Below, piece after piece: positions 19,624 through 19,672 of a stretch of 64,000 nucleotides of DNA (positions are counted from its first letter, which is position 1; each line of letters starts with the position of its first letter). The DNA lies in the NCBI GenBank assembly GCA_014654065.1, contig JACWDM010000002.1, positions 1 to 64,000 on the forward strand, in the 5' to 3' direction. Source of the DNA: Pelagibacterales bacterium SAG-MED15 (GTDB taxonomy: Bacteria; Pseudomonadota; Alphaproteobacteria; Pelagibacterales; Pelagibacteraceae). The translations under genes were made by a program, and so were the position numbers. The notes under the pieces are model-generated. The model was not told the origin of the DNA, ran no database searches, and saw nothing but the letters and a program-made list of their open reading frames with translations.

Positions 19624-19640
19624 TTTATAATTAGTCTAAA
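19624..19640 (-). promoter_or_regulatory. Irr-box (ICE)-like site in katG promoter, promoter-proximal
   Basis: Minus strand TTTAGAC-TAA-TTATAAA; two mismatches to TTTAGAA-N3-TTCTAAA; overlaps predicted -10 TATAAA. Confidence 0.6.
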
Positions 19641-19651
19641 GTAGAAGTCAA
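19624..19651 (-). promoter_or_regulatory. Predicted sigma70 promoter of katG: TTGACT-N16-TATAAA
   Basis: -35 TTGACT at 19651-19646, -10 TATAAA at 19629-19624 on minus strand; AGGAG Shine-Dalgarno precedes the katG ATG. Confidence 0.6.
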
Positions 19652-19655
19652 GTAG

Positions 19656-19672
19656 TTTAGAATGTTTATAAA
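19656..19672. promoter_or_regulatory. Irr-box (ICE)-like site upstream of katG
   Basis: TTTAGAA-TGT-TTATAAA; one mismatch to TTTAGAA-N3-TTCTAAA; sits just upstream of the -35. Confidence 0.7.

Follow-up and report, generated by a model that had tools for sequence, protein, structure and literature searches.

We found that the katG promoter in the window (the whole 64,000-nucleotide stretch of SAR11 DNA that was analysed) carries two ICE-type boxes, one on each side of its -35 hexamer, and that boxes of this type are conserved among relatives in which irr precedes a gene for a peroxide-removing enzyme. The neighbouring irr gene encodes a Fur-family regulator that is very probably the reader of these boxes. 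Direct control of katG by Irr through the two boxes, with repression as the net outcome, is the reading we favour and hold to be reasonably probable; our confidence in the sign of control, taken separately, is modest. The locus comprises the following features:

17387-19594, minus strand: katG, catalase-peroxidase of 735 aa (NCBIfam TIGR00198, 1144 bits)
19603-19607, minus strand: katG ribosome-binding sequence AGGAG
19624-19629, minus strand: predicted katG -10 hexamer TATAAA, embedded in box 2
19624-19640, minus strand: predicted Irr box 2, TTTAGACTAATTATAAA, spanning the spacer and the -10
19646-19651, minus strand: katG -35 hexamer TTGACT (TTGAC in 40/40 rubrerythrin (rbr) loci and 46/49 anchored katG loci)
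19656-19672, minus strand: predicted Irr box 1, TTTATAAACATTCTAAA, ending 4 bp upstream of the -35
19673-20089, minus strand: irr, Fur-family regulator with an HHH (HxH) motif (NCBIfam IrrA, Pfam FUR)
19676-19692, no strand assigned: Fur-type 7-1-7 palindrome TTGAGAATGATTCTCAA in the 3' end of irr (last codons), 20 bp upstream of box 1
20098-20114, no strand assigned: predicted Irr box, exact match to TTTAGAACTATTATAAA, in the irr-fabA divergent gap

The gap between the irr stop codon and the katG ATG measures 78 bp and, read in the direction of katG, consists of TTTATAAACATTCTAAA, CTAC, TTGACT, 16 bases including TTTAGACTAAT, TATAAA, a short leader, and AGGAG. The two hexamers (19651-19646 and 19629-19624, minus strand) are separated by a spacer of 16; a simple promoter scan scored the same -35 but with a different -10, and rbr loci of relatives keep TATAT at the same N16 spacing. 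The ICE inverted repeat TTTAGAANNNTTCTAAA is matched at this promoter by box 1, which reads TTTAGAATGTTTATAAA on the plus strand (1 mismatch in 14), and by box 2 on the minus strand (2 mismatches in 14). The earlier note had proposed a minus-strand TTGACT-N16-TATAAA with one box over the -10 and spacer (19624-19640) and another just upstream of the -35 (19656-19672), 32 bp apart centre to centre; promoter, coordinates, spacing, and placement are all borne out by the sequence, and the -35 is flanked on both sides.

The earlier note had also suggested judging the motif by its frequency against shuffled DNA, and here the result is divided. The loose motif shows no excess: at up to three mismatches the generic form occurs 54 times in the window against 45 expected (10 of 100 shuffles were as high), and TTTAGAANNNTTATAAA at up to two mismatches occurs 369 times in the whole genome versus 459 for the reversed control. 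Loose motif counting was dropped as evidence; because the genome holds no excess at two mismatches, frequency alone is uninformative, and position and conservation are informative. The box pair and a refined motif do stand out. When the gap was dinucleotide-shuffled 20,000 times, no box pair (at most one mismatch, 20-45 bp apart) arose, and the refined motif TTTAGAAYNATTMTAAA at up to one mismatch has four matches in the 1.21 Mb genome, three of them at the irr-katG locus (the irr upstream region, box 1, and box 2) and one within a coding frame, a count that speaks to specificity and is not an independent test, as TTTAGAAYNATTMTAAA was learned from relatives and partly from these same loci. 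The third exact TTTAGAANNNTTATAAA match in the genome (53187-53203) lies inside the coding frame 52919-53572 and is probably due to chance.

We compared 90 distinct loci with katG (50) or rbr (40) as the gene after irr; irr is recognisable in 121 of the 151 genomes of the genus. A box with at most two mismatches occurs in the gap of all 90 loci, with at most one mismatch in 80, and as an exact match in 40, at shuffle rates of 3.8%, 0.3%, and 0.02%, respectively; the loci are related, so that these counts are not independent events, and the shuffles address base composition only. In nearly all of the 90 promoters, a box keeps one of two constant distances from TTGAC: box 1 starts 20-21 bp upstream of it and box 2 about 9-12 bp downstream. 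The missing enrichment of the loose motif would fit a reading of the boxes as chance matches in AT-rich DNA, to which we assign a negligible probability: it is already refuted by the conservation data, by the fixed register across 90 loci and the covariation with irr described below, together with the empty result of the 20,000 shuffles.

The two positions are used differently before the two enzymes. Box 1 is kept in 40/40 rbr and 30/50 katG promoters, and box 2 in 42/50 katG and 22/40 rbr promoters. Of the katG loci, 25 have both boxes, 5 only box 1, and 17 only box 2; of the rbr loci, 22 have both, 18 only box 1, and none only box 2. Three katG loci fall outside these classes: two have no box at the exact offsets, and one (L134) lacks a TTGA[CT] -35 but has an exact box. 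An exact TTTAGAATAATTCTAAA is present among the relatives (L142). Cooperative binding to the box pair, as the distance in the window might suggest, is plausible; box-to-box spacing among relatives is 30, 31, or 32 bp and many promoters have a single box, which argues that pairing is not essential.

The box follows irr and not katG. Searches with the irr query gave no strong match in genera g2, g3, and g4 of the same family, and the katG genes of the irr-less g2, g3, and g4 genomes tested (irr-less status being assigned from genus mates for G456 and G458) and of G235 (g6), which has neither irr nor a katG box, have no box within 200 bp (best match, 3-5 mismatches). The conservation upstream of katG on which the earlier note had staked its reading is thus strong, with boxes at every irr-linked katG or rbr gene of the set and none at katG of irr-less relatives. 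The KatG proteins of three irr-less loci (L318, L321, and L325) are 87-88% identical to the boxed KatG of the irr-containing L319, so that gene descent does not explain which katG genes are boxed and which are not; the boxed relatives of L319 (L320 and L322-L324) have KatG proteins 90-97% identical to that of L319. In G175, irr is present and katG lies on another contig, and the katG box is kept with one mismatch. One exception is G490, an incomplete genome (83% complete) with a box and no detected irr. Across the genomes compared, the presence of the ICE is tied to the presence of irr.

This covariation also bears on which regulator reads the boxes. The window encodes a second Fur-family protein (Fur/Mur, 36140-36568), and Fur and Irr sites share the 7-1-7 palindrome, a Fur-type example of which lies 20 bp upstream of box 1; binding of the boxes by this other protein instead of Irr is nonetheless very unlikely, since irr-less g2, g4, and g6 (G235) genomes retain a Fur-family match and yet have no katG box, and the separate TTGATAAT-type sites of the window's genome sit elsewhere.

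IrrA is the top-scoring family for the regulator next to katG, although its score is just below the curated cutoff (141.1 bits, cutoff 150); Fur scores 41 bits. The haem-binding HxH motif reads SSHHHFF in the window's Irr, and HHH is found in 15/15 relatives examined. Firmicutes PerR and katA offer a similar arrangement, with a Fur-family regulator that controls a catalase gene via 7-1-7 palindromic promoter boxes; the SAR11 case differs in the family score of its regulator, in its alphaproteobacterial box motif, and in the HHH motif. A PerR-type, metal-based peroxide sensor in place of a haem-based one would fit the adjoining peroxide-removing enzyme in nearly all irr-bearing genomes and the lack of a detected OxyR, but it is improbable given the IrrA score of 141 bits against 63 for PerR (PerRB, 62.7 bits against a cutoff of 250, which does not place the protein in that family) and the HHH motif. 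In many proteobacteria, OxyR regulates katG. No OxyR was found in the window's genome (94.7% complete; best LysR score 47.1 bits against a cutoff of 329), and Irr could therefore be the peroxide switch of this cell.

Irr proteins bind the ICE as apoprotein, lose activity with haem, and repress or activate depending on the position of the site (PMC7762939); in Bradyrhizobium, haem-bound Irr is reported to be destroyed oxidatively (PMC4700492). In the mechanism we propose, low haem or iron would let apo-Irr occupy box 2, across the spacer and -10, as well as box 1, from which it would touch the -35; RNA polymerase would thereby be excluded from katG, the gene for a haem enzyme. Abundant haem, or peroxide that inactivates Irr, would allow the enzyme to be made, and repression of katG when haem is short would also save haem. 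The same promoter serves whichever peroxide-removing enzyme follows irr across SAR11, and Irr would also control its own gene via the box at 20098.

That box 2 covers the -10 favours repression of katG under haem shortage. The opposite sign is conceivable: Irr could act mainly as an activator from box 1 beside the -35, in a class-II-like manner, with box 2 as a brake, so that the enzyme increases when haem or iron is short. Box 1 is the most constant element of the rbr loci, the rbr loci of the sister family have it as their only Irr-type box, and promoters with box 1 only (18/40 rbr, 5/50 katG) hold the box beside the -35, from where it could activate; Irr often activates, according to where the ICE lies (PMC7762939). 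Iron limitation raised rbr mRNA 1.57-fold in Ca. P. ubique, which is opposite to simple repression by apo-Irr, and irr did not follow iron (PMC2864753). Against this stand the 42 of 50 katG promoters that keep box 2 over the -10, 17 of them with box 2 alone in a repressor position, and we regard activation as the main role as rather unlikely, and net repression of katG as the better account.

The gene behind irr is exchangeable. Among the 121 irr-bearing genomes, 72 have katG and 46 have rbr, and two of the remaining three have a Redoxin-family peroxiredoxin in this slot. KatG (79 genomes) and rubrerythrin (47 genomes) never occur together in the 151 genomes (P = 5e-21 for independence, a value that ignores relatedness). 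A tree of irr and FabA proteins requires at least four changes of the slot between katG and rbr, three of which are forced by well-supported branches. By this reconstruction, katG and rbr have been swapped at least three to four times while the boxes and promoter stayed in place, and the promoter and its operators thus outlasted the gene they control. The swapping extends to KatG itself: the KatG of G015, a genome of the genus, is only 58% identical to that of the window and occupies the same slot with TTGACTTCTTCTTTAGAATTATTATAAA upstream. KatG proteins with only about 54-59% identity to that of the window are encoded behind irr with box 2 present (L326, L311, and L319-L324), which suggests that one catalase was replaced by a divergent one. 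In a few SAR11 genomes (L207, L211, L247, L300, and L301), the gene linked to irr is instead a Redoxin-family peroxiredoxin, again behind the two-box promoter.

A strict pattern for the box pair matched at least 119 stretches in named genomes, at least 113 of them SAR11 by title, and nearly all named carriers are Pelagibacteraceae. Among the matches listed, the SAR11 stretches lie before katG (at least 56), rbr (at least 51), or peroxiredoxin (at least 4), and two more are cut by the locus end and begin like rbr and katG. The matches outside SAR11 (Campylobacteraceae, Clostridium, two Flavobacteriales, and Planctomycetes) were rejected as chance; all three slot genes are absent nearby. An ICE-like box with TTGACA also occurs upstream of a NifU-like gene in a Paracoccaceae locus (L258, about 1995-2060).

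Control of peroxide-related genes by Irr and the ICE is already known. The regulon of Rhizobiales and Rhodobacterales (Bradyrhizobium, Brucella, and R. sphaeroides) likewise combines a Fur-family HxH regulator with promoter boxes of the TTTAGAA-N3-TTCTAAA type, and in R. sphaeroides the promoters bound by Irr include those of ccpA (cytochrome c peroxidase) and the rubrerythrin-like mbfA but not that of katE (PMC3413700). The SAR11 arrangement differs in that the proposed target here is katG, that two boxes straddle the -35, that one half-site per box is TTTATAA instead of TTTAGAA, and that one promoter has served genes from different enzyme families. In the literature searched, whose scope excluded most subscription journals and the 2006 alphaproteobacterial iron-regulon survey, we found no description of katG as an Irr target, of a two-box promoter straddling the -35, or of the enzyme exchange.

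SAR11 ranks with the ocean's most abundant groups of cells and makes do with very few regulators, and removing peroxide from surface seawater is a standard example of a shared "helper" function. The slot yields a directly testable rule that links individual SAR11 to the peroxide enzyme they carry, and a candidate for its control. It also shows cleanly, in nature, how a promoter and its regulator can outlive their target genes, with the operator lost where the regulator is absent. Tentatively, and with somewhat more doubt than belief, we propose that SAR11 Irr may be the main haem and peroxide switch for a single modular peroxide-defence slot, in which two divergent KatG lineages, rubrerythrin, or peroxiredoxin replace one another behind one conserved Irr promoter and to which a Fur site contributes a second input from iron.

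The genes divergent from irr are fabA-fabB-fabI-like. The box at 20098-20114, overlooked by the earlier note, is a better match than boxes 1 and 2 and is kept in 30/30 relatives in a first alignment. It probably serves autoregulation of irr, control of fabA, or both, and the unsaturated fatty acid genes fabA-fabB-fabI may share Irr control. On the fabA side (20098-20163), this box adjoins a conserved TATAAT and a ATCAAGTAATAAGG-like leader.

The palindrome at 19676-19692, likewise overlooked, is present in close relatives of the window. At rbr loci of the sister family, TTGATAATNATTATCAA-type sites precede box 1 by 23 bp. Two distant SAR11 lineages (the window; L140, L142, L144, and L145) have a palindrome 20-23 bp upstream of box 1. 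The simple reading is that 19676-19692 is a predicted Fur site, and a GATAAT-type palindrome also occurs at an iron-uptake gene, as is typical of a Fur box. The end of irr folds as an RNA hairpin that includes the palindrome (z -3.3), and this hairpin could be the reason for the palindrome instead of Fur; a scan for an intrinsic terminator after irr found none, though the end folds. The only other near matches in the window's genome are two abutting sites at an iron-binding-like gene and one site at a tRNA and nuoA-like gene. The abutting sites, TTGATAATCATTATCAT and TTGAGAATAGTTATCAT (L178 1501-1533; G000:C1:201299-201331), lie directly upstream of an sfuC-like gene for an extracellular iron-binding protein, which by our reading resembles sfuC of Ca. 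P. ubique, a gene that responds to iron limitation with the strongest induction in that organism (PMC2864753). The remaining site (L180 1501-1517) is a Fur-like palindrome between the tRNA gene and the nuoA-like gene.
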